A DNA stretch of 64,000 nt, taken from the NCBI RefSeq assembly GCF_010686655.1, contig NZ_JAAGVY010000006.1, positions 1 to 64,000 on the forward strand. Direction: 5' to 3'. Position numbers and translations under genes: made by a program. This document shows positions 49,287 through 64,000 of the stretch, one piece after another (positions within the stretch are counted from its first letter, which is position 1; every line of letters begins with the position of its first letter). The notes under the pieces are model-generated. The model was not told the origin of the DNA, did no database searches, and worked only from the letters and a program-made list of their open reading frames with translations. This DNA is from Cryomorpha ignava. Lineage in GTDB: Bacteria; Bacteroidota; Bacteroidia; Flavobacteriales_D; Cryomorphaceae.

Positions 49287-50228
49287 TTATGACGACATTA
49301 CATCCATATTATCCAAAACTTCCATTACTTCTTTTACAGAATTTGCAGAAGAGTAAAGCATTTCTTTTTCTTCGTCATTCAGCTTGAGTTCAATAATTTC
49401 CTCAATTCCGTTTTTGCCAAGTTTTGTAGGCACGCCGAGGTAAATATCATTCAGACCATACTCACCTTGCAGCCATGCACAAGTTGGGAAAATACGTTTT
49501 TGATCGCGCACTACTGCCTCAACCATTTGCGCTGCAGCAGCACCAGGTGCATACCATGCAGAAGTGCCCAAAAGATTTACAATCTCACCACCACCTTTTT
49601 TGGTGCGCTCAATAATTGCATTCAGTTTACTCTTATCAATAAGTTCAGTAACAGGAATTCCGGCTACTGTAGTATATCGCGGAAGCGGAACCATCGTATC
49701 GCCATGACCACCCATCAATACTGCCTGAATGTCTTTTGGTGAGCAATTAAGTTCAGTGGCGATAAATGCACGGTAGCGCGCAGTATCTAGAACACCGGCC
49801 ATACCGAATACTCGGCGCGAATCGATTTTTGCCGTAAGGTAAGCGGCATACGTCATTACATCAAGCGGATTGCTCACAATAATAATCTTTGCATCAGGTG
49901 AATGCTCAATAGCTTGTGCGGTAACATTTTTTACGATGCCGGCATTCGTAGCTATTAAATCGTCGCGGCTCATACCAGGCTTACGCGGAAGACCCGAGGT
50001 GATTACAATTACTTCAGATCCGGCCGTTTTTTTATAGTCATTTGTAGAGCCTATCGTGCGGCTATCGTATAAATTGATAGGCGAAGTTTCCCAAATATCC
50101 AATGCCTTACCCTCGGCAAAACCTTCTTTGATATCCAGTAAAACAATTTCATTTGCAATTTCGTGATGTGCAAGTACATTCGCACACGTAGCACCTACAT
50201 TTCCGGCACCTACAACTGTTACTTTCAT
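49287..50228 (-). CDS. mdh: Malate dehydrogenase
   Basis: The 313-residue NAD-dependent enzyme interconverts malate and oxaloacetate in the TCA cycle. It belongs to the LDH-like group: the nucleotide fold GAGNVGATCANVLA at the N-terminus, substrate Arg in GLPRKPGMSRDDL, NPLDVMTYAAYL, and the catalytic His in GGHGDTMVPLPRY. Product choice (malate rather than lactate) follows from the Arg in the mobile loop. It is a single gene with its own promoter and terminator. Confidence 0.95.
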   Translation of the reverse strand: MKVTVVGAGNVGATCANVLAHHEIANEIVLLDIKEGFAEGKALDIWETSPINLYDSRTIGSTNDYKKTAGSEVIVITSGLPRKPGMSRDDLIATNAGIVKNVTAQAIEHSPDAKIIIVSNPLDVMTYAAYLTAKIDSRRVFGMAGVLDTARYRAFIATELNCSPKDIQAVLMGGHGDTMVPLPRYTTVAGIPVTELIDKSKLNAIIERTKKGGGEIVNLLGTSAWYAPGAAAAQMVEAVVRDQKRIFPTCAWLQGEYGLNDIYLGVPTKLGKNGIEEIIELKLNDEEKEMLYSSANSVKEVMEVLDNMDVMSS

Positions 50229-50265
50229 ATTATTTTGAAATTTTCTGTGAGTTTACTTTGAGGTG

Positions 50266-50273
50266 CAAATATA
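50266..50273 (-). promoter_or_regulatory. mdh promoter -7 element
   Basis: TATATTTG on the minus strand (50273-50266) matches TAnnTTTG and lies 38 bases upstream of the mdh ATG. The -33 position about 19 bases upstream reads GTTAG, a weak match. Confidence 0.6.
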
Positions 50274-50712
50274 ATATATACACTTGACTCTAACTTCATA
50301 ATAAAAACAAATCGCCACTGTACTGCAATTTAGATTCATAAAAAATAAGTGATTAAAAAAATTGTATTTCCCAATATGCACAATGGTTTCTGTATGTTTC
50401 GAAATGAAAAATGATTCGATTTAGACAATCAATTTAACTCCGATATTTTCATCTGAATTGAATAAATGTATATTTAGCACCAATTTCGGAAAACAAGATT
50501 GCAGAAAGACCGTAAAGAATTTATCGCTGTTGAAGTTGAATGCACTCAATAAAAACAGAGGAATTTAGAGATATTACCTTTAGAAAAACGGTATATATAT
50601 TTCTTTACAACTTTCATATTATTGTACTTAATAAGAAAAATAGTAGCCTACCACATTTAATAATAGGCAAGAATTTAAAAATAAATGGCAACCATCAACC
50701 CAACACGCCGTC
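50274..50712. other. Intergenic, AT-rich, between divergent mdh and sigma factor genes
   Basis: No gene is supported. A 63-codon plus-strand frame (50540-50731) is compositionally AT-driven, has no motif and overlaps the sigma factor start, so it is rejected. The leader of the sigma factor gene probably lies here. Confidence 0.6.
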
Positions 50713-51321
50713 TTGGCAATGCTTAGTGTAAACAACATCAGTGAAGATCAGCTTAAAATGCTGGTTGACGGTTGCGTACGAAATCATCGTAAAAGCCAGG
50801 AAATGGTCTATAAGATGTTTTACGGCAAGATGATGTCGGTTTGCAGGAGGTACACCAAAAACGAAGATCAGGCGAAGGATATTCTTCAGGATGGCTTTAT
50901 CAAGGTTTTTAAAAACATTGAAAAGTTTAATTTTGACGGATCTTTTGAAGGTTGGATTAGAAGAATTGTAGTCAATACGGCGATAGATTTTACGCGTAAA
51001 GCCAAAAATGACTACCTTTTAATGAACGAAAACCAATCGCTCGAAGATTTTGAGAATGATCTGCTCGATGAAAGTGTTGAAGAAGATTATGATACTCCCT
51101 TTAAAGTGAGTGATGTAATCGCCGGAATGGAACAACTTTCAAATGCATACCGTACAGTATTTAACCTGTACGTTTTTGAAAATTATTCACATCAGGAAAT
51201 TGCCGACGCGTTGAAAATAAGTGTTGGCACGAGCAAGTCAAATTTGGCAAAAGCCCGTGCAAACCTTAAGAAAATATTGACTAAAGAATTGGAGAAAAGA
51301 AATGGCGAATCAACTAGATAA
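50713..51321 (+). CDS. ECF-type RNA polymerase sigma factor
   Basis: The 202-residue protein has sigma region 2 (QEMVYKMFYGKMMSVCRRYT, DQAKDILQDGFIKVFKNIEKF, FEGWIRRIVVNTAID) and region 4 (LSNAYRTVFNLYVFENYSHQEIADALKISVGTSKSNLAKARANL), with no regions 1 or 3. The start may be codon 1 or the Met at codon 3. Its end overlaps the next gene by 20 bases, the normal arrangement for a sigma factor and its anti-sigma. The large surface-protein genes that follow are candidate targets. An acidic linker (EDFENDLLDESVEEDYD) joins the two regions. Confidence 0.93.
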   Translation: MAMLSVNNISEDQLKMLVDGCVRNHRKSQEMVYKMFYGKMMSVCRRYTKNEDQAKDILQDGFIKVFKNIEKFNFDGSFEGWIRRIVVNTAIDFTRKAKNDYLLMNENQSLEDFENDLLDESVEEDYDTPFKVSDVIAGMEQLSNAYRTVFNLYVFENYSHQEIADALKISVGTSKSNLAKARANLKKILTKELEKRNGESTR

Positions 51322-52540
51322 ATTTGACGAACTGATCAAGCAAAGCTTTGATGGTTTTGAAGTACCTTATGATCCACAACATTGGGATGACCTGCAGGCA
51401 AACTTAGACTCAACTACGCCGAGTCTTACCAGCTATTTTGGGGCTATCACCACCGGGTTGGTTGCTACAAGCGTTGTGTTTATCGCCATGTTGTTCTTCT
51501 TCTCTGATGCTCAAATACAAAATCCAAAACATATAAATGTTGACGAAATTACGGCAGAACATTTAGGGGAAGAAGGGAATGAGAATGCAAGTCAAAAATC
51601 TGCGATTGAAAATAATACAGCAGAGCTTAGTGAAGAATCTGATAGTGACGCTACAGTTTCTGAAGATGATAATGCTATTGCTGAGACTAAGGCAGTAAAT
51701 GCTAAAGCTGATAAGGCAATAAGTAAAGAGAAAACAAATTATGCTAAAGCCGAAGCATTAAAAACTCCGGTTAAAAACATCAAAGGAACTGCGGGTGCAG
51801 AAAGTGTATCTCGTGTGAGAACAGGGTGTACCGGATTGGTAATAAATTTTGATGCCTCAGAAGAATACGGTTCTGATGCCAAATATCTTTGGAATTTTGG
51901 CGATGGCTTTTTTAGCAATGAGTCAAACCCATCTCATACATTTAATAAAGAAGGTGTATTTGACGTATCGCTTTCGGTAACATCAAAAACTACAGGTCAA
52001 ATTTCATCAAATGTTGTGCAGGCGATGATAGAAGTAAAAGAAGCTCCTGTTGCTAATTTGGATGTAAATATTGAAAGCCTCTCATCTATTTCCATTAAAA
52101 ACGACAGCTATAATGCCAGCGATTTGGAATGGAATGTGGACGGCAAAATGCTAATCGACAAAAACGAAATTAATATTAGCGTAGTTGACAATACCCGCCA
52201 AAACCTGGTGATGAGTGTTAGCAATGACGGTGGTTGTACCGATACGCTCGAAACAGTGATCAATAGTGTAGTTGCAGGGTCAGAGTTTCCACGTGCCCTC
52301 GGTTCATCATTTGGTGCAAGTTTTGCTCCGGGCGCTATTTTAGATTCAGGCGACGTGAAATCGATCAAAATTTTCGAAAAATCTTCAGGCAAGCTTGTTT
52401 TTGAAGGGTCGGGAAATAAAGGTTGGAACGGTACCGAACTAAATGGAGAGCCGGCGCATAAAGGTGCTTACAAGTGGCTTATGGCGGTTAAAAAATCCGG
52501 ATCTATCGATATCTACAAAGGAGATATAGAGTTGCGTTAA
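51302..52540 (+). CDS. Membrane anti-sigma-like protein with PKD domain and type-B-sorting-domain-like C-terminus
   Basis: The 412-residue protein begins with a cytoplasmic motif common to Bacteroidota anti-sigma-like proteins (DKFDELIKQSFDGFEVPYD then PQHWDDLQANL), has one membrane helix (about residues 45-67, AITTGLVATSVVFIAMLFFF), a low-complexity acidic/Lys-Ala linker (to about 170) and a PKD domain (CTGLVINFDASEEYG, KYLWNFGDGFFSNESNPSHTF). The last 80 residues (VKSIKIFEKSSGKLVFEG, GWNGTELNGEPAHKGAYKWL) follow the layout of the gliding-motility-associated type-B sorting domain (iydRxGxxVFxxxxxxxxWdGxxxGxxxxxGxYxY). It lacks a cleavable signal peptide, so it would stay in the inner membrane. 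It overlaps the sigma factor gene by 20 bases. Confidence 0.82.
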   Translation: MANQLDKFDELIKQSFDGFEVPYDPQHWDDLQANLDSTTPSLTSYFGAITTGLVATSVVFIAMLFFFSDAQIQNPKHINVDEITAEHLGEEGNENASQKSAIENNTAELSEESDSDATVSEDDNAIAETKAVNAKADKAISKEKTNYAKAEALKTPVKNIKGTAGAESVSRVRTGCTGLVINFDASEEYGSDAKYLWNFGDGFFSNESNPSHTFNKEGVFDVSLSVTSKTTGQISSNVVQAMIEVKEAPVANLDVNIESLSSISIKNDSYNASDLEWNVDGKMLIDKNEINISVVDNTRQNLVMSVSNDGGCTDTLETVINSVVAGSEFPRALGSSFGASFAPGAILDSGDVKSIKIFEKSSGKLVFEGSGNKGWNGTELNGEPAHKGAYKWLMAVKKSGSIDIYKGDIELR

Positions 52541-53151
52541 GCCTCACATCAGCCTAGTTACATTCTTTGAGCTTCATTTTTAAATTCTTTGGGCTGATCT
52601 ATATTGGAGGGTTAGCGATCTCGCTAATACTAGGGTGAGAATATATTGGGAGCTTTCAGGTTCTATTTCAAAATAATGACTTCCTCCAAAAAAATTCTGA
52701 ACAAGTTCACATAACTCAAAAAATCCGTTATTAGTTTTGGTTGCCGCACTCGGAATTTTATTCCCAACCTAATTCATATTTGAATAGAAATAAGAAATCT
52801 ACTTTTCGCAGAGATTTCAGTCTCAAATGAAATTTTCGGAATTCAGCTTACTCTTGCATTCCTAATTAGTATTTGCACTCAGTTTATAACAATAGATTAA
52901 AGATTAGTTCGTAGCCTGAAAAAAGGGCACATCTGTTTATTCCACTATAAATCTGTGCAATAAGCTACATAATAGAATTCCTTTGAACAGAGCCTGAAAG
53001 AAAATCAAAGTGAATTGTATTCATACGAGCAACTTCTTAGATAGTTACTCGTCATTCTTTCACCAGATGCCATATAAACACATTTGAAGTAGATTTCCAT
53101 AGATGACTTTTATATCTTTGGACTTTACGCTCAAAACCAACCATTCAGAGA
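52541..53151. other. Leader region of the large surface protein, no gene
   Basis: These 611 bases hold no supported gene. A short inverted repeat TTAGCGA/TCGCTAA with a two-base centre lies at 52612-52627. TATCTTTG at 53113-53120 fits a -7 element about 32 bases upstream of the next ATG, without a matching -33 element. That would be compatible with use of an alternative sigma factor such as the ECF protein upstream (inference). Confidence 0.5.
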
Positions 53152-56100
53152 ATGATGAAAATGTTTACTAAAAGAATTTTATCGATTGCGATCATAATGC
53201 TTAGCCTTGCAATGGCTAATAACGCTAGTGCGCAAGATACCTTATCATGGACTTCTAGTCCCTCACCCATTAATGGAGCCTATGAACCAGGAAGCATCGT
53301 AACATTTTGTTTCACAGTTGAAATAAATCCGCTTATTGGTGGAGCAAACTGGTTCCATGGTCTTGTTTTGAACATCCCTACTGGTTGGGATTATACCAGT
53401 ATTACGAATACCTCAGCACCGCCGAGCTGCACCGGAAGTGGGGGTGGTAATTGGGCGTTTTATCAAAATGGTCCGGATGGTCCCGGTTTTTATTACGATT
53501 CAGGAACCGGTGGGCCGCTTGATGGGAACCCCGGAAATAACTGGGGAGATCCGTGTTCTACAAACCAACTTCCAGACGACTTTACCTTTTGTTTTGATAT
53601 AACAGTCGGTTCGCCCCATTATGATGTGAATGGATTTCTTGATGGATATGATTGTGGTCCCGGTGGAAACGATATAGATGGAAGTTCGATTACGCCTTCA
53701 GTTACCTTTACCGGAGATGGAGAGACAGGCTCATGGGGTGGCACTTATGCCCCCACGCCACCGGTTTCTAGCGATCCTATTACAATTAAATGCTGTGATG
53801 CCGAAGCGGGGGTAAGCCCCGGCACGCTCCCAATTTGTGAAACTGGCAATTGGAACTTATTTGATGAGCTTGGAGATACGTTTGATGGAATTCCGCCTGA
53901 TACAGGTGGTGTGTGGACCTATGAAGGTGAGCCAGCGTATTCATGGACAAACCCGTGGTCACCTGCGGATAGCACTTGGTTAGGAACTTTTGATCCTACT
54001 ATCGACCCACCTGGTGAATACACCTACACAGTTACTCTGATTGACACAGTTACTGCTGACACTTGTACAAGCGCCACCACGATCATTATGGAGTTTATTT
54101 CGCTCGGAACTGTACAAAACATTGCAGATTGTAGTGGTACTCCTACTAATATTCTCCCTTTAATTACGAATTTCATTATACCCGCCGGGGGTACATGGAC
54201 CGACCCGGTTGGTACCCCTCTGGTCGGCGCCACAGTAGATCCGAATGTAAACCCTCCTGGTTTATATACCTATTCTTACTATGACGCCGGAATGTGTCTT
54301 ACAACTTTACAAGTACAAGTTACCTTTGCAACCGGCGGTGCTGCAGGTTCGCCGGGCACAGTTGATATATGTACATCTGATGCAGGATGCTTTTCACCGT
54401 TTACAGCGCTCCAGGGCAATCCTACCGCGGGTGGGAATTGGATCGTTTATGACTCTACAGGTTTTATATTTCTTGATTATTTGCCTGAATGGAATATATG
54501 TCTAGATATGTCAACCTATCCAAGCACGGTGCCAAATGGTTATGTCGGTGACTTTTTATTCAAATATCTTCTTGGTGCACCTCCATGTGATCCTGTGTTG
54601 GTGGATGTAACTGTAAATATTTTTGCCCCTGTAAATACAGGGGCGAACACCGTTACTTCGCTTTGCGTCACAGATGCTCCAGTAGAGCTTCATACACTGG
54701 TTGGCGGTGACCCAGGATTAGAATGGAATCAGGGTGGTACTGTAATACCTGATTTATTAGACCCCTCCACTTATGCTGCAAATACTAGTTTAAGTTTATA
54801 CTATGAAGGTGGTCTGGCGGGAACATCATGTGTGAGCTCTACGCTCCTTCAATTAACTATCTTGCCAACTTATGCATATGCCGGCGAGAACAATACGATA
54901 AATGTTTGTACGGCAGACGCGTTCATACTAATGAGAGACTCCATACCTGACAATGGAACAGATGTGGTGCAAAACGGTGGTACATGGCAAGACAATGCGG
55001 GAAATCCTACAAACACAGATTATTTTGTACCGGGTACAAGTGCTCCGGGAACTTATGTGTTTACTTATAATATTGTTAGTCCGTGTGCTACGGATCAATC
55101 TACACTCACAATAATTGTTGAGCCTACCCTTAATCCTGGAACAAGCGGCATACTTGATATCTGTTCAAATGAAACAAACGTTGCTCTAAGCGGTGGCCTT
55201 ACCGGTACTTTTGATACAGGAGGCACATGGACAGATGCATCAGGCATAGTGGTTCCGGGTGGAACTGTTAATGGAAATGCAGTAACAAATGGTGCTGTAT
55301 ATACCTATACCGTTGGTAGTGCACTTTGTGCGCAAACTGCAACTGTAACGATCAATGTAATTCCTGCGCCAAATGCTGGAGTATTAACAACTACGCCCCA
55401 GACATATTGTGATTCTGATGCGCCTATTGATTTAATGACACTTTTCACGACTCCCCCATCTGTATTGCCTTCACCCGGTGTGGCAGGCTGGACAAATCCC
55501 GGCGGAGCAACCGTTACCACAGTCAATCCGTCAAGTGGATCTTCAGCTTCGGGAGTTTATACTTATACAATTCAAAATTCCGGATGCGGACAAGCAAGTG
55601 TTTCTATCACCATAACTATTAATGATACTCCAAATGCAGGAACAGATGGAACATTAACCGTTTGCCCGAATGGTACAGGAACAGTTGATCTAATTAATTC
55701 TCTTGGTGGAAGCCCTGCCCCCGGCGGAACATGGACAGGCCCATTCGGTGGTGGTTTTAGCGGAAGCTTTAACCCGGCCACCCCAGACGCAGCAGGAGTT
55801 TATACTTACACCGTTGGAACTACTTGTACAGATCAAGCTACGGTTACAGTATCTTATGATGTATTGCCAAATCCGGGTATTTCTAGTACAGTTACCGTTT
55901 GTGCCGGTGATCCTGCCTTCAATCTGATTGATGAACTGGGAACTGGAGCAGTTTTAGGGAACTGGAGTTTTGGCGGAAGCGACACTTCTGGCACATTCAC
56001 CCCCGGAACAAGTAGTCCCGGTGTTTATACCAATACGGTAACCGCCGGTACATGCCCATCAGTAACTGCTACCCTTACGGTAAATGTTACAGCCCTGCCA

Positions 56101-59100
56101 AATGCAGGTGCCGACGCTACCGTAACTTTCTGCGAAACTGCAGGAATTGTTGATTTGACAAGTTACTTAAATGGAACTCCTACCACAGGTGGATCATGGG
56201 CAGACGCAGGCGGAATGACAGTTTCAAACTCACTGAATGTTGCCACACTTTGCGGAAGCAGCCTTGTATATACTTATACCGTTGGCTCCGGAACATGTAG
56301 TTCGTCAGCAGTATTGAGTTTTGATGTAATATGCTCGCCAAGTGCCGGTTCGGGTGGAACTCTTGATTTATGTTCGGACAACGGATCGTTCTCATTATTT
56401 GATGGATTGACCGGACCTTATGACACCCCCGGAGTTTGGACAAATAGCATTAACACTGTCGTTTCGAACCCTACAAATATGAATCCTGCCACTTTAGGCA
56501 CCGGCGATACCTTTACTTATACTGTTGAAGCCTTGCCATGTGCTGCCGCTTCCGCAGATGTTGTTGTATCTATCACCCCTGAAATTACTACTGCAAACCT
56601 GGATGTATCTTGTACTTCTTCTCAAACAACTTATATTGTAGGTTTTAGTATTTCGGGGGGCGATGGCTCTTATTCTAATTCAGGAACAACATCAGGTTCT
56701 ATTTCAGGTGGAATTTTTACCTCTGACCCAATAAATGTAGGAACTGATTACAGCCTAATTATTTCTGATGGAAGTGCTTGTGGAGACATCACTGTTTCAG
56801 GTGTTTCGCCTAATTGTAGTTGTCCGACTACGGCCAGCTTTGCATCAGGAAATGAAACAATATGTATCGGAAGCTCAACTGATATTGAAATGAACCTCGG
56901 TGGAGGAATTGATGGAAATTATGGTTTTGTATACAATGATGGAACGGACGACATCATGGTTTCAAATGCAAGTAACGGACATATAATCTCTGTGACTCCT
57001 ACAGTTACTACTACCTATACTTTGGTAAGTGTAACTGATGGATTTTGTACTAATCCAATCAGCGGCTCTGTAACTATTACGGTAGATCCATTAAACGATG
57101 CCGGAAATGATGTTCCACAAGATTATTGTGGAAATGGCTCAAACTTGGTATTAACCCCAGCGACCGGAGAACCAACCGGAGGAACTTTTTCGCCAGCTTC
57201 TATTGCACTCTTGCCTGCTAATTCCGGTGACTATAACTACACGATGTCAGGTGGCCAATGTCCGCCGGATGTTGCAGTTTATACTATAAATATTGACGCA
57301 CCGCTTGCTACTACGTCTGTACAGACAACTTGTGAATCAAATCAAACTGAATATACGGTAACAATAGTGATTACAGGTGGCACATCGCCTTATAGTGTAG
57401 ATGGAAACGAAATTGCAGGAAATAGCTTTACTTCTTCTGTAATCGCAATGGGCACTAACTATAGTTTTGATATTGACGATTCAGGTGCCTGCGGACAAAT
57501 TACGGCATCTGGACTTTCACCAAACTGTAACTGCCCGGTTAACGCCAGCTTCAGTACTGGTAACCAAACTATTTGTATTGGAAGTTCAACGAGTATTGGC
57601 CTTAACCTTACAGGTGGAATCGATGGAGATTATACTGTTTCCTATACTGCCGGAGGCTCACCTCAGTCATTGTCTGGTCTTTCAGATGGTGCTGTTATAA
57701 CAGTGAGCCCGACCACAACGACTACTTACACCCTGACAGGAGTTGAGGATAGCAATTGTCCGGGCTCTGTAAATGGAAGCGTAACAATAACTGTTGAACA
57801 ATGGCCTAATGCTGGCGGAGATATAAGTGCTGAATACTGTGCAGACGGAACTGTGTTAGTCTTGACACCGGCATCAGGTCAGCCTTCCGGCGGATCTTTC
57901 AGTCCGGCTTCTGTCACTAAAGATGTTGCCAACTCGGGTGTTTTCACTTATACAATGTCGGGAAATGTTTGTCCGGATGATCAGGCAAACTACACAATTG
58001 ATTTTATTCAGGAACTTGAAGTTATTGATTTAACTGCCGTTTGTTCTTCAAATCAATTAGAATACACGGTTTCCTATACAATTTATGGTGGTACACCTCC
58101 CTATATTATTAATGGTGGTTCGCCTATCTACTCAACGAACTTTTCGGAGGTTAAAGTTTTTGCCTCGAATCCTACTTATAACTATACAATTTCAGACAAT
58201 GGCCCTTGTGCAGATGTGGTTATTTCAGAAACAGCGCCGGATTGTAATTGTATTGCCGAAGGTTCAATAACCGGATCGCAAGCAATTTGCAACGGCGACG
58301 GTGCAGAGATAACTTTTAACGGAATAGGTGATGCCCCATTCAATATTACCTACACCAATTCTGTTTCGACACAAACAACACCGCTTAATTCAATTAACAA
58401 CGGACATGTTATTACGGTATATCCTACTGTAACAACAACTTATACGCTTGAAACTGTTAGCGATTCGTATTGCGAGGGAGTTGTATCTGGTAATTCTGTG
58501 ACAATCACGGTTGACAATCCAGTGGTAATTTCGGGAGTAACTGAAATATGTAATACTACCGCCGAAGGCTATGTTGTAGAATTTTCTTACACCGGTGGTG
58601 TGGGTCCATTCACTTTCAGTCCCGGAAATACATCTTCAACACCAGGTGTTTATACGAGTCCGGTTTACCAAAGCGGAAGCGGGTATAGCATTACAGTTAA
58701 CGATGCGGGAGCTTGTCCACAACAGATTGTTTCAAGCCCTGGTTATACTTGCGCTTGCCTAAGCGATGCCGGAACGATACCGACACCTGACTTTGAAGTT
58801 TGCTACGGCGAGTCAGCTACTGTAACGACAAATAATTCTAATCTCGATGGAAATGATGTATTGCAATACATTCTTCACGATGGTGATGGTTCTTCTATAG
58901 GAAATGTTATTGCCACCTCGACGAACGGAACGTTTGTATTTAACTATGGATCTATGACACCGGGTGCTGCATATTATATAACTGCCGCTGTTGGAAATAA
59001 TATCGGCGGTGGAAATGTGAACCTCAACGGGTCATGTACTTCTCTTTCGAATGCTGTGCAAGTGGTAATGAATCCACTTCCTACGGCTTCCATCACAGGA

Positions 59101-60915
59101 GGATCAATTGTGTGTGTTGGTGAAGCAGTAGACTTGGAGATTACTTTTACTGGCGGGGCACCTTATGACTTTGTTTATAAAATTGATGGCGCGACGCAAG
59201 GATCTAATACTATTCCAACCGGAAACACCTTTACACTCACCGTATCTCAGCCGGGTAACTATACGCTGGAGTCTGTTAGCAATACTTGCACCGGAACAGT
59301 TTCCGGGTCAGCAATTGTGCAGAATTATGAAACTCCAACTGCCACCCTAAGTGGTGAGCCTACTGTTTGTGAAGGCAGCGGCGATGGCCCACAAGTAGCC
59401 CTTACCGGAAATGGACCTTGGAATCTTGTTTACACAATTGATGGAGTGGAGCAACCACCGGTTACTACCAACTTCGTAACTTATACCATTCCGGTAGAAA
59501 CGGATGGCAATTATGCCCTCGTTTCTGTAGAAGGATCATATTGTTCAGGAACGGTAAGTGGAAGTCAGAATGTAACCATTCTTGATGCACCTACTGCTTC
59601 GATTACAGGCGGTGGTACCGTTTGTGCCGGAGACTCTGCAACATTTGATGTAAGTCTTTCGGGTATTTCTCCATGGACAGTTCAGTATACTGTAGATGGA
59701 GTGCCACAGAATCCGCTAACCGGAATTACTTCTGGTTACAGCTTTGAATCGAGTGTGGATGGTGATTATGTGCTGGTGTCAGTTACCGATGCAAATTGCT
59801 CGGGCGAAGTTCTAGCAAGCCAGGCTGCGCTTATTGTAAATCCATTGCCCACCGCTGAAGTTACTACTAACAAGTCTTCGGTATGTATTGGTGAGGAACT
59901 TCAATTGGGAATAGATCTGGAAGGTGTACCACCATATAGCGTAACCTACGTTTTAAATGGTGATACAATCGTTGCTACAGGTCTTTACAGCGACTTTATG
60001 AAAACATTATCGCCTGTAAATCCTGTAACTTTTGAAGTAATATATGTTTCAGACGGTTCAAACCCAACCTGTTCTTCAGATGTAATAGACCTTACATATA
60101 TTGATGCAGTGGCACTGCCAAACGCACCCGTTCTTACAGATGACACGATTTGTGCAACAAATGGTCCTGTAACTATCGGAGTAAATGCTGCACCCGGTTT
60201 AACGTATAGCTGGAGTCCGGAAACGAGTTTATCAAGTCCGAATACTTCAAATACGCTATTCCAGCCTTTCTTAAGCGGGCCGGTTGCCAAAGACTTTAAG
60301 TACGTATTAACTGCTACGAATGGAGAATGCTCTGCAAGAGATACCATGATCGTTACAGTAGATCCGGGGCCACAGGCGCGCTTCTCTTATACACCCGATC
60401 CGATTTCGAGTGAAGACCCAACCGTTTTCTTCAAAAACAATACGGTTGGAAGAGACAATGTGATCTACTTCTGGGAATTTGATTCACTTGACACTTCAAA
60501 TGATTTTGAGCCATCGTACAAGTTCCCCGATGGAATTAATGACAGCTATACCGTGAGCTTAACTGCTATAGATCCTGTAACCGGATGTGTGGATGATTAC
60601 AAAGACATTCTGAAAATCAAGCCCGAAATGCTGATTTATGTTCCTAGCGCATTTACTCCCGATGGCGATGGCAAGAATGATTTATGGGCACCTGTGCTTA
60701 CGAATGTAGATGCCGATAATTTTAAACTTACAGTTTACGACCGCTTAGGTGTATTGGTATTTACCACTACAGATGTAAAACAAAAGTGGAACGGGAATAA
60801 AATGAACGGCAATTACTATGTTGAACCCGGAGTGTATGTTTGGATGATTGAAACCAAGAACCAAGTATCGCTTGAAGAAGTTAATATGAAAGGAATAGTA
60901 ACGGTAGTAAGATAA
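53152..60915 (+). CDS. Giant T9SS-secreted repeat protein with type-B (gliding-motility-associated) sorting domain
   Basis: The 2587-residue protein has a signal peptide (ends NNASAQ), an N-terminal domain rich in Gly, Pro and Cys (to about 220), roughly ten 75-90 residue repeats of one type (pattern NAGxxGTLxxCxxxxxxxL, GGTWTxP, GVYTYTV; about 225-1150), units of a second type (CxxSFxTGNxTICIGSSTxI; about 1160-1880), four units of a third type (PTASITGGxxVCxGExxxxxV; about 1975-2260), a PKD-like domain (about 2405-2490), and the type-B sorting domain (YVPSAFTPDGDGKNDLW, VYDRLGVLVF, WNGNKMNGN, GVYVWMIE; about 2492-2587). Paired Cys recur in each repeat. Such proteins are surface adhesins or motility adhesins related in design to SprB; the ligand is unknown. 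Alternative starts lie at 53155 and 53161. Confidence 0.88.
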   Translation: MMKMFTKRILSIAIIMLSLAMANNASAQDTLSWTSSPSPINGAYEPGSIVTFCFTVEINPLIGGANWFHGLVLNIPTGWDYTSITNTSAPPSCTGSGGGNWAFYQNGPDGPGFYYDSGTGGPLDGNPGNNWGDPCSTNQLPDDFTFCFDITVGSPHYDVNGFLDGYDCGPGGNDIDGSSITPSVTFTGDGETGSWGGTYAPTPPVSSDPITIKCCDAEAGVSPGTLPICETGNWNLFDELGDTFDGIPPDTGGVWTYEGEPAYSWTNPWSPADSTWLGTFDPTIDPPGEYTYTVTLIDTVTADTCTSATTIIMEFISLGTVQNIADCSGTPTNILPLITNFIIPAGGTWTDPVGTPLVGATVDPNVNPPGLYTYSYYDAGMCLTTLQVQVTFATGGAAGSPGTVDICTSDAGCFSPFTALQGNPTAGGNWIVYDSTGFIFLDYLPEWNICLDMSTYPSTVPNGYVGDFLFKYLLGAPPCDPVLVDVTVNIFAPVNTGANTVTSLCVTDAPVELHTLVGGDPGLEWNQGGTVIPDLLDPSTYAANTSLSLYYEGGLAGTSCVSSTLLQLTILPTYAYAGENNTINVCTADAFILMRDSIPDNGTDVVQNGGTWQDNAGNPTNTDYFVPGTSAPGTYVFTYNIVSPCATDQSTLTIIVEPTLNPGTSGILDICSNETNVALSGGLTGTFDTGGTWTDASGIVVPGGTVNGNAVTNGAVYTYTVGSALCAQTATVTINVIPAPNAGVLTTTPQTYCDSDAPIDLMTLFTTPPSVLPSPGVAGWTNPGGATVTTVNPSSGSSASGVYTYTIQNSGCGQASVSITITINDTPNAGTDGTLTVCPNGTGTVDLINSLGGSPAPGGTWTGPFGGGFSGSFNPATPDAAGVYTYTVGTTCTDQATVTVSYDVLPNPGISSTVTVCAGDPAFNLIDELGTGAVLGNWSFGGSDTSGTFTPGTSSPGVYTNTVTAGTCPSVTATLTVNVTALPNAGADATVTFCETAGIVDLTSYLNGTPTTGGSWADAGGMTVSNSLNVATLCGSSLVYTYTVGSGTCSSSAVLSFDVICSPSAGSGGTLDLCSDNGSFSLFDGLTGPYDTPGVWTNSINTVVSNPTNMNPATLGTGDTFTYTVEALPCAAASADVVVSITPEITTANLDVSCTSSQTTYIVGFSISGGDGSYSNSGTTSGSISGGIFTSDPINVGTDYSLIISDGSACGDITVSGVSPNCSCPTTASFASGNETICIGSSTDIEMNLGGGIDGNYGFVYNDGTDDIMVSNASNGHIISVTPTVTTTYTLVSVTDGFCTNPISGSVTITVDPLNDAGNDVPQDYCGNGSNLVLTPATGEPTGGTFSPASIALLPANSGDYNYTMSGGQCPPDVAVYTINIDAPLATTSVQTTCESNQTEYTVTIVITGGTSPYSVDGNEIAGNSFTSSVIAMGTNYSFDIDDSGACGQITASGLSPNCNCPVNASFSTGNQTICIGSSTSIGLNLTGGIDGDYTVSYTAGGSPQSLSGLSDGAVITVSPTTTTTYTLTGVEDSNCPGSVNGSVTITVEQWPNAGGDISAEYCADGTVLVLTPASGQPSGGSFSPASVTKDVANSGVFTYTMSGNVCPDDQANYTIDFIQELEVIDLTAVCSSNQLEYTVSYTIYGGTPPYIINGGSPIYSTNFSEVKVFASNPTYNYTISDNGPCADVVISETAPDCNCIAEGSITGSQAICNGDGAEITFNGIGDAPFNITYTNSVSTQTTPLNSINNGHVITVYPTVTTTYTLETVSDSYCEGVVSGNSVTITVDNPVVISGVTEICNTTAEGYVVEFSYTGGVGPFTFSPGNTSSTPGVYTSPVYQSGSGYSITVNDAGACPQQIVSSPGYTCACLSDAGTIPTPDFEVCYGESATVTTNNSNLDGNDVLQYILHDGDGSSIGNVIATSTNGTFVFNYGSMTPGAAYYITAAVGNNIGGGNVNLNGSCTSLSNAVQVVMNPLPTASITGGSIVCVGEAVDLEITFTGGAPYDFVYKIDGATQGSNTIPTGNTFTLTVSQPGNYTLESVSNTCTGTVSGSAIVQNYETPTATLSGEPTVCEGSGDGPQVALTGNGPWNLVYTIDGVEQPPVTTNFVTYTIPVETDGNYALVSVEGSYCSGTVSGSQNVTILDAPTASITGGGTVCAGDSATFDVSLSGISPWTVQYTVDGVPQNPLTGITSGYSFESSVDGDYVLVSVTDANCSGEVLASQAALIVNPLPTAEVTTNKSSVCIGEELQLGIDLEGVPPYSVTYVLNGDTIVATGLYSDFMKTLSPVNPVTFEVIYVSDGSNPTCSSDVIDLTYIDAVALPNAPVLTDDTICATNGPVTIGVNAAPGLTYSWSPETSLSSPNTSNTLFQPFLSGPVAKDFKYVLTATNGECSARDTMIVTVDPGPQARFSYTPDPISSEDPTVFFKNNTVGRDNVIYFWEFDSLDTSNDFEPSYKFPDGINDSYTVSLTAIDPVTGCVDDYKDILKIKPEMLIYVPSAFTPDGDGKNDLWAPVLTNVDADNFKLTVYDRLGVLVFTTTDVKQKWNGNKMNGNYYVEPGVYVWMIETKNQVSLEEVNMKGIVTVVR

Positions 60916-60984
60916 AAGCTAAAGTTTACTTTATGCAACTTAGCTATCTTTATACCGTCAATAGTTTATCAAGTTTGAAACCAT

Positions 60985-61413
60985 ATGAAATCCATTAAAC
61001 TAACCATTGTATTATTGGCACTGCTCTCTTTTGAAAGCGGGCACGCTCAAACGGCAGAAGATTATGCCGCCGTATCTGAATTTTTACCTGCAGAAGAATT
61101 GTCTTCAGCTCAGGAAAATCAAGCCAGATTTGCGCAATTTGCCTACCTCAACAGGCATGGCTACTATTTGGGAAATACAGGAGGCAAAGATTTCTCTACG
61201 TTCCCGGATATCTCCGAAGTGAATGCTTTCTATTCAGGTGTTCCTGAAATAAGCCTACAGCTAATTGAAACCGGGGAACTAAATTTAATGGCTTATAGTT
61301 TTGAAATGAAACGCAACGCCTACAATTATTACAGAGTACCCGGAAGCGATAAAGTTTTGGTTATTCTTCCAATGAATCTGAGTCTACAAAGAATAAACTC
61401 CGAAATTAAGTAA
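60985..61413 (+). CDS. Small secreted protein of unknown function
   Basis: The 142-residue protein has a clear signal peptide (MKSIKLTIVLLALLSFESGHAQ) and a mature part of about 120 residues without Cys. I do not recognise the family. The mature part contains FAQFAYLNRHGYYLGNTGGK and a hydrophobic C-terminal stretch (DKVLVILPMNLSLQ). It has no T9SS domain, so it should stay periplasmic unless it moves with a partner. It sits between two large T9SS cargo genes, two bases upstream of the second, so an accessory role for one of them is plausible. Confidence 0.7.
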   Translation: MKSIKLTIVLLALLSFESGHAQTAEDYAAVSEFLPAEELSSAQENQARFAQFAYLNRHGYYLGNTGGKDFSTFPDISEVNAFYSGVPEISLQLIETGELNLMAYSFEMKRNAYNYYRVPGSDKVLVILPMNLSLQRINSEIK

Positions 61414-61415
61414 GC

Positions 61416-64000
61416 ATGAGAAAATCTTTAGATATTATACACTTTAAGGATTGGATTAATCCTATCGCTGTTTTCTGTGTATTTCTCATTTTCACAACTG
61501 GGATTTACGCGCAAGACACTTATATTATTGAGAATGGAACAGTAACGGCTTGTGAGGGTAATTTTATTGACGATGGGGGTGCTGGAGGACTACCTTATAC
61601 CCCGGGAAATGATTATACATTTACAATTTGCCCGGAGAATGCCGGTGATGTGGTTTCGGTGATTTTTAATGCCTTCGCGCTTTACCAAAGTCCCAATCCA
61701 AACAATAGTGACTACCTGTATATCTACGATGGCGATGACGCGACAGCTGTAAGTCTGGGAAGCTACACTGGTAGCTCCTTACAAGGACTACCGGTAACAG
61801 GGACAGTTGGCAATACAACTGGCTGTCTTACTTTTGTATTTAATTCTAATCCCAACGGTGGTGGAACCTTTCCTGGTTGGGAGGCTGCGATTGAGTGCAC
61901 GACTCCCTGTGCCACACCTACTTCAGCATCAGAGATTGTAGATCCAGAACCCGAGGGACCCGCTCAATCAATAGGTGTATGTTTAAATGCACCTGTAACT
62001 TTCGGTGATATGGGATCTTATGCAGAACCCACATTCGCTTTGCAATATTGGGTTTGGAATTTTGATGATGGCAATATCGACACGCTAACAGCTCCAACTG
62101 ATATAACCCATTCTTTTACTGAACCAGGTGAATACCTAGTGACATTATCAGTAATTGACTTTAATGGCTGCCGAAGCTTAAATGTTGACCCGCTTCAAGT
62201 TTTGGTAAGTACTATCCCGGTCTTTAATACGGCATTTGAAACACCTGTTTGTGTAGGAGCCGGAGGAACAACAATAGACGGAAGTGCTGTACAAAGCGTA
62301 ACCTGGACGGCCCTTCCTCCGCAGGTAGTTTCCGGCACTACCTATTTGGCAGATGGTGCGGGGTTTCAGTATTCCAGTTGCCTGACTTTTGATTTTTTTG
62401 AGGCAGGCGCCACTTTGGAAGACTGCAGTGACTTGCTGAATGTTTTTATGAACATAGAACATTCATATTTAGGAGATCTTGGTATTTCTATAACCTGTCC
62501 TAATGGAACATCAGTAATGCTGTTGGATCAAGGTCCAAATAGTGGAGGAGCTACTTATTTAGGAGAGGCTGTAGATGAATTTAATTTAGGACCACCACCC
62601 GAAGATGACGACGATGTGCCCGGTATTGGATATGATTATGGATGGTCGCCAACAAGCACTAATGGTTTTATTTACGATGATGCCAATGCAACCGACCTGA
62701 CTTACGTCAACCAATCTGGAGGGCAGGAGACCAACCATTCTGTGGCTAATCCGGGTCTTTACGAAAGCAATGAGGATATGTGTATTCTCGAAGGTTGCCC
62801 GCTCAATGGAGATTGGTGTATTAACGTTACTGACTTTTTAGCATCGGATAATGGAAATATTTTCGCTTGGGGCATCAGCTTTAATCCGGCGCTATTTCCC
62901 GATGTTACTACTTTCACGCCTATCGTTGGTCTTGATCAGGACTCTACCTGGTGGGAAGGCCCAAATGTGGGAAATACTTCAGGTGACGGTAATACGATTG
63001 AAACCACTTATACCACTCCCGGAAATTATGACTATACATTTTATGCGACCAATAATTTCGGCTGCACATTTGATACCACTGTTACCGTAGAAGTAATAGT
63101 AGGCCCTGAAATAACAGCAGGACCAAATGTAACTTACTGCAGCGAACCAGTGCTTCTTGAAGCTGGCTTAGCTAACTCTCCGGCTCAATGTAGCGACGCT
63201 GCAGGAACTTATGACCTTTGTTTTGCAAATAATTCGAATTACGAATTCACATATTGCCCTAATAACCCGGGAGATGGCTCTACCTTTATGGAACTGGTTA
63301 TTAACAGTGGTAACGCTGATTGGGGCGATAACTTCACCGTTTATGACGGTGATGATATTACTGCCCCGGAGATTGGGAATCCGAACGGTGACTTGGGTGG
63401 GTTGAGCTATACGGCTACCAATCCCACAGGCTGTCTCACAATTTCAATGGCTACCAATGGTTTTTCGAGTTGCGAAAGCGGTGAATATCCACCTATAAAT
63501 TACACAGTGACTTGCGGAGGCGGTTCCGAACTGGTTTGGTCGTGGTCTCCGACTACGGGCTTATCAAACCCAAACATTCAAAACCCGACTGCTGAAGTAA
63601 CTCAGACTACAGTTTATACGGTTTCAGCCTACCCCGCTGGATTTCCGGGATGTATAATCGTTGACCAGGTAACTGTATCTCCAGATGCACTTGCTAATCC
63701 GGGTATTGATACTGACACAACACTTTGTTACAACTCACCTATCACATTTTTAACAGACTACCTCGATGGCGATCCTGCCCTGAATGGTGACTGGACAGAT
63801 GCCGCAGGAAATACAGTACCGAACCAGTTCAATCCTTCAAACTATGTGGACGGTGGAAATTTTGACTATACTTATTTAGTAACTAACGGAATCTGCGAAG
63901 GAACATCTAACCTGCAGTTAACAATTTTACCTGCAACAAATACCACCTGCTGTCAAACGAACGCAATGGCCGGTACCGATGCTACCGCTTGTGCTTTAAC
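61416..64000 (+). CDS. Large secreted CUB/PKD/P-domain protein, 5' part (runs off the window)
   Basis: The ATG at 61416 opens a frame that is uninterrupted to the window end (861 codons, incomplete). After a signal peptide (ends TTGIYAQ) come a CUB-like domain (about 40-140, TACEGNFIDDGGAGG, DYLYIYDGDDATAV), a PKD domain (about 185-270, YWVWNFDDGNIDTLT, HSFTEPGEYLVTLSVID), a proprotein-convertase-type P domain (about 315-485, HSYLGDLGISITCPNGTSVM, LNGDWCINVTDFLASDNG), more PKD-like sequence, a second CUB-like domain (about 585-690, CSDAAGTYDLCF, FTVYDGDDITAPEIG) and a GGxW/TYLV repeat like those of the giant protein upstream. No catalytic domain is visible. A T9SS domain is expected beyond the window edge. 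Confidence 0.85.
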   Translation, partial: MRKSLDIIHFKDWINPIAVFCVFLIFTTGIYAQDTYIIENGTVTACEGNFIDDGGAGGLPYTPGNDYTFTICPENAGDVVSVIFNAFALYQSPNPNNSDYLYIYDGDDATAVSLGSYTGSSLQGLPVTGTVGNTTGCLTFVFNSNPNGGGTFPGWEAAIECTTPCATPTSASEIVDPEPEGPAQSIGVCLNAPVTFGDMGSYAEPTFALQYWVWNFDDGNIDTLTAPTDITHSFTEPGEYLVTLSVIDFNGCRSLNVDPLQVLVSTIPVFNTAFETPVCVGAGGTTIDGSAVQSVTWTALPPQVVSGTTYLADGAGFQYSSCLTFDFFEAGATLEDCSDLLNVFMNIEHSYLGDLGISITCPNGTSVMLLDQGPNSGGATYLGEAVDEFNLGPPPEDDDDVPGIGYDYGWSPTSTNGFIYDDANATDLTYVNQSGGQETNHSVANPGLYESNEDMCILEGCPLNGDWCINVTDFLASDNGNIFAWGISFNPALFPDVTTFTPIVGLDQDSTWWEGPNVGNTSGDGNTIETTYTTPGNYDYTFYATNNFGCTFDTTVTVEVIVGPEITAGPNVTYCSEPVLLEAGLANSPAQCSDAAGTYDLCFANNSNYEFTYCPNNPGDGSTFMELVINSGNADWGDNFTVYDGDDITAPEIGNPNGDLGGLSYTATNPTGCLTISMATNGFSSCESGEYPPINYTVTCGGGSELVWSWSPTTGLSNPNIQNPTAEVTQTTVYTVSAYPAGFPGCIIVDQVTVSPDALANPGIDTDTTLCYNSPITFLTDYLDGDPALNGDWTDAAGNTVPNQFNPSNYVDGGNFDYTYLVTNGICEGTSNLQLTILPATNTTCCQTNAMAGTDATACAL

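Follow-up and report, generated by a model that had tools for sequence, protein, structure and literature searches.

A cargo-like tag on a membrane switch that probably governs giant secreted surface-protein genes in Cryomorpha ignava

The adjustment of cargo synthesis to export in bacteria with a type IX secretion system (T9SS) is, to our knowledge, a largely open question. It is raised by a 64,000-nucleotide stretch of Cryomorpha ignava DNA (the window), in which a likely sigma factor lies together with its candidate promoter, a putative sensor that resembles cargo, and the cargo genes. With these components in one window, and with the sigma/sensor pair recurring across the order, the question becomes directly testable by the deletion of one domain. 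The locus probably encodes a membrane switch governing genes for giant secreted surface proteins, and the cargo-like tag on this switch suggests that the cell adjusts surface-protein production to its export capacity.

An ECF sigma gene and its anti-sigma-like neighbour

The sigma gene (50713..51321, plus strand), read from a TTG start, encodes a product matching the Pfam models Sigma70_r2 (E 4.1e-16) and Sigma70_r4_2 (E 5e-13) as well as the superfamily model TIGR02937 (92.9 bits, cut-off 42.9). Its start codon is uncertain, since the first ATG (50719) lies 6 nt past the -10 box. The sigma ORF overlaps by 20 nt a second plus-strand ORF (51302..52540, ATG start) for a membrane anti-sigma-like protein of 412 aa, as the first-pass annotation had described. 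That annotation also proposed an anti-sigma-like architecture beside an ECF sigma gene, which is borne out by the sigma profile scores and by 60 further loci of the order, all of which carry an ECF sigma gene directly upstream and a terminal type-B C-terminal domain (CTD). In a sigma tree, a branch of support 0.80 set 104 of the 106 sigma factors from family loci apart from all 25 outside sigma factors. A search of the region 50200-53400 against Rfam gave no match at gathering scores.

The N-terminal part of the anti-sigma-like protein (residues 1-48; 51302..51445, plus strand) bears the motif FDExxKxxxxxxExPYDxxxW and is a putative sigma-binding domain, a role to which gene order and shared architecture point. 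The respective profile (A2, residues 1-79) matched in 111/120 genomes of the order and in 78/296 genomes of the phylum, and an ECF sigma gene was found directly upstream of such a domain in 27 of 28 loci taken from the phylum search. Against the PDB, the N-terminal profile gave nothing convincing, the matches being repetitive designed proteins and other weak ones. The only hydrophobic span called by the hydropathy scan is internal (residues 49-67; 51446..51502, plus strand) and represents the single predicted transmembrane span. It is followed by a tether (residues 68-168; 51503..51805, plus strand) which is polar and of low complexity, judging from hydropathy and composition, and presumably periplasmic. 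From the span to the first cysteine of the subsequent PKD domain there are 108 mostly polar residues in the window protein, and in the 22 of 24 family members with a span called the tether measures 99-173 residues.

A C-terminal end homologous to that of T9SS cargo

Beyond the tether, the plus-strand ORF encodes a PKD domain (residues 169-236; 51806..52009; PKD_4 E 5.7e-13), an Ig-like domain (52010..52288) and a degenerate type-B CTD (residues 330-412; 52289..52537). The PKD part of the structural model resembles collagenase PKD domains (best Z 9.7, rmsd 2.2, 74 residues), while the Ig-like domain is homologous to the one at the same position in cargo, according to the comparison of profiles A3 and A4. 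CHU_C, a type IX secretion signal, is the Pfam model that best fits the last 86 residues taken alone, at E 4.4e-4 and 20.7 bits, which is under the gathering score of 27 bits; TIGR04131 reaches E 0.045 and 13.9 bits (cut-off 35). Judged by its own sequence alone, the window copy is thus a sub-threshold type-B CTD, and its identity is supported by the family: among 24 full-length members, the window protein included, CHU_C matches 17 (best E 2.3e-16) and TIGR04131 matches 10 (best E 1.4e-9) at E 0.01. An HMM built from cargo CTDs only matched 16 of these 24 with E values of at most 3.7e-7; the remaining eight belong to the window's own family (f1), in which the window protein gave 0.062 and the rest no match.

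In a profile-profile comparison (hhalign), the anti-sigma end aligned with the cargo end, represented by the window's cargo and its relatives, with a probability of 100 and E 4.6e-43 over 187 columns. The earlier claim that the protein ends in a homologue of the type-B sorting domain therefore holds, whereas its restriction of the unit to residues 330-412 does not: the homologous unit comprises the last two domains, Ig-like and CTD. No unrelated domain scores better than CHU_C on residues 330-412. FlgD_ig was rejected as a name for this end (E 0.027 vs 4.4e-4; the list of families matched by the 24 members at E 0.01 does not include it), as was the polycystin model TIGR00864, which matches 22/24 members, covers residues 194-278, on the PKD side, and stays far under its cut-off (19.5 of 1861 bits for the window copy). 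In addition, the anti-sigma profile matches the Aureispira surface protein GhpA at residues 5800-5889 of 5,898 (E 2.8e-16). The AF2 model of the anti-sigma segment consists of successive Ig-like sandwiches. Its mean pLDDT is 86.9, with values under 50 at segment residues 160-169, and confidence is low at the expected FTPNGDG position. A fold search with this model was led by PKD and Ig-like domains and contained no T9SS CTD among the matches listed, which proves nothing; the CTD of the cargo model matched the T9SS substrate CTD 8glk_D of NucA (Z 9.4, rmsd 1.8, 73 residues).

The closest cargo is encoded downstream on the plus strand. Cargo 1 (53152..60915) is a secreted T9SS type-B protein of 2,587 aa, the C-terminal 171 aa of which score 43.5 bits with TIGR04131 (cut-off 35) and E 1e-16 with CHU_C; its type-B CTD (60631..60912) ends in TVVR. 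Cargo 2 (61416..63998, plus strand) continues past the window end and has its type-B CTD at contig positions 64947-65216. The RWG triplet occurs in none of 102 anti-sigma CTDs and in 102 of 111 cargo CTDs, and by text match R[WYF]G is found in 2/102 and 107/111, respectively. F[TS]P[DN] is present in 40/102 anti-sigmas vs 101/111 cargo proteins, while WxG is general (99/102 and 111/111) and [YF]xW occurs in 89/102 anti-sigma CTDs. RWG is not universal in cargo, since cargo 1 has RLG and nine of the 111 other cargo ends are devoid of it. The window anti-sigma lacks FTPNGDG and RWG and carries WxG, GxYxW and a C-terminal KGxIxLR; in five distant members APN[AS]F[TS]P[DN]xDGxND is retained. The type-B CTD of SprB has five conserved motifs, each required for secretion or shuttle recognition, and motif mutants are not secreted (PMC12618676). 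We infer that RWG is one of these motifs (A-E). Its absence from all 102 anti-sigma CTDs, which the first-pass annotation had not foreseen, is compatible with a pseudo-substrate. Given that the window's family also lacks FTPNGDG, the window CTD may have ceased binding a shuttle.

Across the 60 further loci of the order, the PKD model matches in 34 and a type-B cargo gene does not adjoin in 35; the CTD is kept despite PKD divergence and the missing cargo neighbour, and thus constitutes the conserved part. At the loci fetched from another family (f8), no type-B cargo was found among the next three ORFs. A phylum search with the full-length profile, for which five candidates were scored per genome, is uninformative on absence outside the order, because these lists were filled by PKD cargo; the search was repeated with the N-terminal profile, at most 19 candidates being scored per genome. 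A T9SS marker was present in all 120 order genomes examined (SprA in 118, GldM in the other two). The suggested survey of T9SS co-occurrence hence found no pair-bearing genome without the T9SS among these 120, but it is a weak test, as the system is near-universal in the order. PorP/SprF genes are absent from the window's contig, and the 15 over the cut-off elsewhere in the genome do not single out a cognate shuttle.

A common promoter motif before the sigma operon and cargo genes

The window contains three sites of the pattern GCAAC-N16-CGTC vs 0.14 expected, a number reached in none of 100 dinucleotide shuffles. All three sites are on the plus strand and constitute putative ECF promoters, on window and locus counts: 50688..50712 precedes the sigma/anti-sigma operon, pointing to autoregulation, 53029..53053 precedes the 2,587-aa cargo 1 and is also backed by genome pattern counts, and 60935..60959 precedes the second cargo operon. 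The last is missed by the stricter genome pattern because T, not R, stands ahead of GCAAC. A match with a spacer of 17 (GCAAC-N17-CGTC) at 55507, within cargo 1, was set aside as a probable chance occurrence.

A perfect promoter was found before the sigma gene in 36 of 47 loci vs 0.1 expected, a set that includes one non-member (L119, Lacibacter) and counts near-identical genomes separately. When the next same-strand gene exceeded 250 aa (mostly cargo) and the gap exceeded 150 nt, it was preceded by a perfect promoter in 6/14 loci and by one with at most one mismatch in 10/14 (0.4 expected); a closely following gene of this size was preceded by none (0/18), as expected for one shared operon. 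First-order Markov randomisations served as controls in the locus and mini-CTD promoter tests. The strict pattern gave six matches in the window's own genome vs one in the control; two belong to the window's sigma gene and cargo 1 and one to a type-B cargo gene of about 900 aa. Most of the sites in three genomes of the window's family stand before the sigma operon or before T9SS-type cargo. Beyond this family a cargo identity of the targets is less evident: among the 27 N16 sites not belonging to sigma genes, seven precede large secreted-looking genes, three a small membrane protein and 12 other genes or none, while five lie inside ORFs. The N16 promoter had no match in two of three f8 genomes scanned. 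The combined N15/N16 pattern was noisy (in G045, G051, G406, G031 and G386, forward and reverse matches did not exceed the control), and we thus rely on the N16 sites and the window's family.

GCAAC-N16-CGTC is the probable promoter of this sigma factor. Being common to the sigma operon and cargo genes, it supports, as motif evidence, the earlier proposal that the sigma factor drives cargo expression. As in the FlgM type of regulation, the substrates of the machine appear in the sigma regulon, by motif and not by transcription, in the window and in its family.

The pseudo-cargo end as a proposed sensor, its alternatives and related systems

The cargo-like end together with the promoter sites before cargo genes points to a probable cargo-driving sigma factor held by an anti-sigma tipped with pseudo-cargo. 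The reading that we prefer, at a probability of about one half, is a Dma-like membrane anti-sigma with a T9SS pseudo-substrate as its sensory end. The sigma/anti-sigma pair, the one span with its long tether, the cargo-homologous end, the family-wide loss of RWG and the common promoter are firm at the level of sequence, to which the reading adds a presumed binding to the T9SS. The sigma factor would be retained by the N-terminal domain at the inner membrane, and the tether would extend the CTD to the outer membrane; there the CTD may be taken for cargo, by a shuttle of the PorP/SprF type or by the SprA translocon. The missing RWG and the membrane anchor would prevent export of the protein, and real cargo would contend for the same shuttle or translocon sites. 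Most likely, free sites would lead to the pseudo-substrate being engaged or pulled, the sigma factor being freed and more cargo being made, while export saturated by cargo would let the anti-sigma disengage and re-bind the sigma factor. Cargo gene expression would thereby be tied to export capacity in a FlgM-like manner. The opposite polarity is also conceivable; the "idle" and "blocked" states of the machine, both named as triggers by the first-pass annotation, are in fact opposite signals.

In proteins from outside the order, this N-terminal domain is accompanied by OMP_b-brl_2 in 15 of 27 cases and by OMP_b-brl in nine, and by a type-B CTD in none (0/27); elsewhere in the phylum it thus often appears joined to a Dma-like outer-membrane beta-barrel. 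Dma itself is described as consisting of a sigma-binding domain, a transmembrane helix, a disordered tether and a beta-barrel (PMC13088901), and type-B CTDs are described as binding PorP-like barrels (PMC9143113). The CTD might accordingly replace the Dma barrel and only dock the tether to an outer-membrane shuttle barrel, sensing the state of the outer membrane or envelope and not cargo load. We consider this unlikely, though worth attention, as the promoter sites of the three window-family genomes mostly concern the sigma operon and T9SS-type cargo rather than envelope repair, and a mere anchor has no need to lose RWG in every member.

It is improbable that the PKD, Ig-like and CTD domains now form an ordinary periplasmic binder, for instance of unexported cargo or a glycan, with no tie to the T9SS. 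The window copy, with FTPNGDG and RWG both gone and a model of Ig-like sandwiches that is poor in confidence at the FTPNGDG site, would suit such a role, but the family retains WxG, [YF]xW and, in 40/102, F[TS]P[DN], and its end persists despite PKD divergence and without a cargo neighbour. An end homologous to an export signal, on a tether whose 99-173 residues could cross the periplasm, also brings to mind a protein with its N-terminus in the inner membrane and its PKD domain and CTD threaded via SprA to the surface, where it would sense the outside. With RWG absent in 102/102 and SprB motif mutants not secreted (PMC12618676), this is highly improbable.

The preferred reading, a Dma-like anti-sigma with a pseudo-substrate end, combines features of several known systems. 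Dma, as described, shares the N-terminal sigma-binding domain beside an ECF sigma gene, the one transmembrane helix, the long disordered tether and a C-terminus meant for the outer membrane (PMC13088901); the single span and long tether of the window protein, as seen in hydropathy and composition, agree with that description. However, the window protein ends in PKD, Ig-like and type-B CTD domains and not in a beta-barrel, and its likely regulon is T9SS cargo, whereas that of Dma is vesiculation or PULs. The sigma partner of Dma belongs to group ECF21. Type-B cargo with PorP/SprF shuttles (SprB-SprF, PG1035-PorP) is homologous in the last two domains, while the anti-sigma has an internal span and a sigma-binding-like domain, no signal peptide and no RWG. 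FlgM, the anti-sigma of the late flagellar genes, is soluble and exported. As with FlgM and sigma-28, the sigma factor here probably supplies a machine with substrates and the anti-sigma bears the signal of that machine, but the present anti-sigma is tethered and probably not exported, and the machine is the T9SS instead of a T3SS.

In the PorXY-SigP-PorA pathway of Porphyromonas gingivalis, T9SS genes are served by an ECF sigma factor that a CTD protein influences, the targets being genes of T9SS components (PMC7712824). That pathway differs in its two-component system and surface PorA, in a CTD located outside any anti-sigma and in a regulon of T9SS components. The SM6 promoters of Flavobacterium psychrophilum, which are of ECF type with a CGT box, precede T9SS genes and one sigma/anti-sigma pair; there the targets include the machine parts PorU and GldN, and section 15 of that paper mentions no anti-sigma CTD (PMC9723704). 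Our literature search, with most subscription papers outside its reach, found no anti-sigma described as carrying a T9SS CTD. If the preferred reading is true, the export-coupled anti-sigma logic known from flagella extends to the T9SS, and Dma-type anti-sigmas are modular at their outer-membrane end.

More tentatively, we suggest that throughout this Bacteroidota order an RWG-less, tethered pseudo-cargo may match the output of T9SS surface proteins to export, and that the sigma factor of the window's family probably directs, in addition, the production of a CTD-only mini-protein, which could act as a free competitor or reporter of shuttle load. In this family, the mini-protein is devoid of the RWG tryptophan in 8/8 genomes. 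Finally, the second cargo operon opens with a gene (60985..61413, plus strand) for a small secreted-looking protein of 142 aa, and similar genes of about 136-150 aa occur among the cargo genes of relatives.

The anti-sigma and its cargo-like end

The anti-sigma-like ORF of the window (51302-52540, forward strand, 412 aa) shares 20 nt with the ECF sigma ORF at 50713-51321. Its N-terminal segment, carrying the motif FDExxKxxxxxxExPYDxxxW, is connected by a single hydrophobic span (residues 49-67) and about 108 mostly polar residues to a PKD domain (residues 169-236, E 5.7e-13), behind which an Ig-like domain leads into a terminal domain some 80 residues long. The sigma-overlapping membrane protein described in the first-pass annotation, with one span, an N-terminal motif and a PKD domain, is thus confirmed. 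A gene that we take, from its sequence, to be malate-dehydrogenase-like (49287-50228) adjoins the sigma gene divergently, as in loci of several families; in family f9 a different gene, presumably tRNA-thiolase-like, occupies that place.

The annotation had also claimed that the protein ends like the type-B C-terminal sorting domain (CTD) of the type IX secretion system (T9SS). The last domain of the window's own copy scores below the cut-offs of both available models (20.7 bits against CHU_C, cut-off 27; 13.9 bits against TIGR04131, cut-off 35). However, among 24 full-length family members, window copy included, 17 match CHU_C and 10 match TIGR04131 at E 0.01 or better. An HMM of 27 cargo CTDs, free of anti-sigma sequences, matched 16 of the 24 (E 3.7e-7 or better); the remaining eight all belong to the window's own family, f1, in which the window copy gave E 0.062 and the other seven no match. 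Profile-profile comparison of 23 anti-sigma ends with 28 cargo ends, the window's cargo first, yielded a probability of 100, with E 4.6e-43 across 187 columns, covering both the Ig-like domain and the CTD. The anti-sigma profile also matches the Aureispira surface protein GhpA (5,898 residues) at residues 5800-5889 (E 2.8e-16), and the classic CTD start, e.g. LLAPNAFTPDGDGLNDLF, is retained in the more distant anti-sigmas L016, L019, L026, L027, and L029. AlphaFold2 models of the anti-sigma and cargo ends were both confident (mean pLDDT 86.9 and 93.1, respectively) and are similar in CTD strand order, although the former is uncertain around the place where FTPNGDG is missing. Judged by its sequence, the end is a degenerate type-B sorting domain, and the claim of a type-B-like end holds in that form through the family matches and the profile-profile result.

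Aligning 102 distinct anti-sigma ends with 111 distinct cargo ends shows what sets the former apart. In the RWG triplet, 0% of anti-sigma but 95% of cargo ends have the W, and 11% vs. 97% the R. The WxG motif retains both its W and its G (100 and 97% of anti-sigma ends, 100% of cargo ends for both), and at the second aromatic of YxW a W is found in 94% vs. 37%. Text matching in the last 95 residues gave RWG in 0/102 anti-sigmas and 102/111 cargo, R[WYF]G in 2/102 and 107/111, F[TS]P[DN] in 40/102 and 101/111, and WxG in 99/102 and 111/111, respectively. Counting against a strict reading, the window's first cargo (53152-60915, 2,587 aa), which lies outside the 111, has RLG at the RWG position. 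According to passages in Paillat et al. (2025, PMC12618676), the SprB type-B CTD has five conserved motifs, each required for secretion or shuttle recognition, and we infer that RWG is one of them. With both RWG and FTPNGDG lost, the CTD of the window's anti-sigma family may by now serve a different function.

Distribution of the domain

The first-pass annotation had called for a survey of co-occurrence with the T9SS. Of 120 genomes from the order, 111 match the N-terminal profile (residues 1-79) and 118 match SprA, the remaining two having GldM; as every genome examined thus carries a T9SS marker, co-occurrence is a weak test here. The C-terminus was checked in 60 fetched loci from 59 genomes, chosen by hand and for the most part following the ranking of matches. 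All 60 have an ECF sigma gene directly upstream and a type-B CTD at the end, and 34 match the PKD model. In 18 loci a type-B cargo is one of the two same-strand genes that follow, whereas 35 have no such neighbor, 5 run off the locus and 2 stop at its edge; the constant is therefore the CTD and not the neighbor. The named relatives include MAGs labeled Flavobacteriales, Cryomorphaceae, Crocinitomicaceae, and Vicingaceae, which makes Flavobacteriales the probable order.

Across a phylum-wide sample of 296 genomes the profile matched in 78, three of them within the order. Of 28 loci fetched from this sample 27 have the sigma gene upstream, and none of the 27 fetched from outside the order carries the CTD, while 15 of them match OMP_b-brl_2. 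The sigma tree places 104 of 106 family-locus sigmas, and none of 25 outside ones, on one side of a branch (support 0.80), and the two that fall elsewhere are L119, from a Lacibacter locus that lacks the CTD, and the second paralogue L247.

L247 (genome G392) belongs to a second, shorter sigma/anti-sigma pair, with ORFs of ~270-310 aa seen in other f8 genomes; it was the one inspected, and its C-terminus is likewise a type-B CTD that lacks RWG. Outside the order, another variant of the N-terminus heads a polar protein of ~225-265 aa with no recognized barrel or CTD (L251, L258, L261, L262, L265, L266, L274, and L276; the next same-strand gene runs off the locus).

A shared promoter motif

An unbiased search for spaced words upstream of sigma genes (5-mer, gap 13-19, 4-mer) returned GCAAC-N16-CGTC in 26 of 46 sequences, while no word exceeded 6 in three randomized sets. 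Of 47 loci, 36 carry a perfect site (N15-17) ahead of sigma (0.1 expected), in most cases no more than ~50 nt from where the first in-frame start lies. We then considered the next same-strand gene of >250 aa behind the anti-sigma, a cargo in most loci. Among the 14 loci with a gap above 150 nt, the site is perfect in 6 and has one mismatch or none in 10 (0.4 expected); with gaps of up to 150 nt there was no perfect site and one single-mismatch site among 18, as expected for one transcript. In the window GCAACY-N15-CGTC matches exactly three times (0.14 expected; 0/100 shuffles reach three), before sigma (50688), before cargo 1 (53029), and before the second cargo operon (60935), formed by a small secreted-looking protein (60985-61413, 142 aa) and cargo 2 (61416-63998, running past the window end). 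Motif position and co-conservation make it likely that this is the promoter used by the sigma. Genes similar to the 142-aa one (~136-150 aa) recur among cargo genes of another family.

In the window's whole genome RGCAACY-N15-CGTCW has 6 matches (control 1): sigma, cargo 1, a ~900-aa type-B cargo (TIGR04131 above cut-off), a 727-aa secreted protein with an end read as type-A, a small membrane protein, which we take to be DUF5684-like, and one antisense match inside an ORF, probably chance. Three genomes of the family hold 16 N16 sites, three each before sigma, the adjacent cargo, the ~900-aa cargo and the small membrane protein, and one each before a mini-CTD protein, a pair of a 127-aa gene with a 1,011-aa secreted gene, and a type-A-like gene; the sixteenth site is chance. 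The suggestion that the sigma drives cargo genes is strengthened by the sites before sigma, cargo 1 and the second cargo operon, and its regulon is likely T9SS cargo.

This picture is weaker outside the family. Across all 12 scanned genomes there are 47 N16 sites, and two f8 genomes have none. Outside the window's family there are 4 sigma sites and 27 others: 7 before large secreted-looking genes (two with an end read as type-B), 3 before the small membrane protein, 5 inside ORFs, and 12 before other genes or none. There, the adjacent cargo usually lies within 150 nt behind the anti-sigma and needs no promoter of its own.

A ~140-aa DUF5684-like membrane protein, as we presume it to be, follows the motif in six genomes of two families (L353, L324, L328, L340, L344, and L347). 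Three f9 genomes have paired promoter-like matches ~80 bp apart with no same-strand ORF called behind (L338:262 and 344; L341:337 and 417; L342:4600 with G045:C2:2090494), where perhaps a short gene or RNA follows. An identical 26-bp match occurring three times, 82 bp apart (G000:C17:56058-56247), looks like a repeat array.

A proposed tethered pseudo-substrate and a possible free counterpart

FlgM sets sigma activity for flagella, and something similar may apply here. The simplest joint reading, and the most likely one, is that a tethered pseudo-substrate would sample the availability of shuttle or translocon and then set sigma activity. This reading draws on the likely cargo regulon, on a layout shared with the Dma anti-sigmas of Bacteroides (sigma-binding-like domain, transmembrane span, tether, and outer end, according to part of PMC13088901), and on the binding of type-B CTDs to PorP/SprF-like barrels (as passages of PMC9143113 and PMC12618676 have it). 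The genome encodes 15 PorP/SprF proteins above cut-off, none on the window's contig. As to polarity, release of sigma by free sites is tentatively favored. Of the first-pass proposal of a decoy coupling cargo expression to export, the cargo-like end is confirmed and the interpretation supported in part, the promoter evidence adding to it. In a related precedent, parts of PMC9723704 describe F. psychrophilum SM6 ECF promoters preceding T9SS machine genes and one sigma/anti-sigma pair. We file the protein as a putative Dma-like ECF anti-sigma with a T9SS pseudo-cargo domain as its outer end in place of the Dma beta-barrel; it stands outside Dma because it lacks the barrel, and is not a typical type-B CTD because RWG and FTPNGDG are missing.

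Each of the 8 genomes in the window's family has one gene for a small protein made up almost entirely of a signal peptide plus a type-B CTD (126-133 aa; L354:1902-2285 on contig C86 of G000, and L356-L363, with L360 called as 164 aa from an upstream in-frame start). It may have taken over part of the role of the family's anti-sigma CTD, and it is an appealing, though speculative, candidate to serve as a free competitor of the anti-sigma or as its reporter. The W of RWG is absent in 8/8, an FTPNGDG-like stretch is retained, and the genes have a perfect promoter in 5/8 and one with at most one mismatch in 6/8 (0.32 expected).
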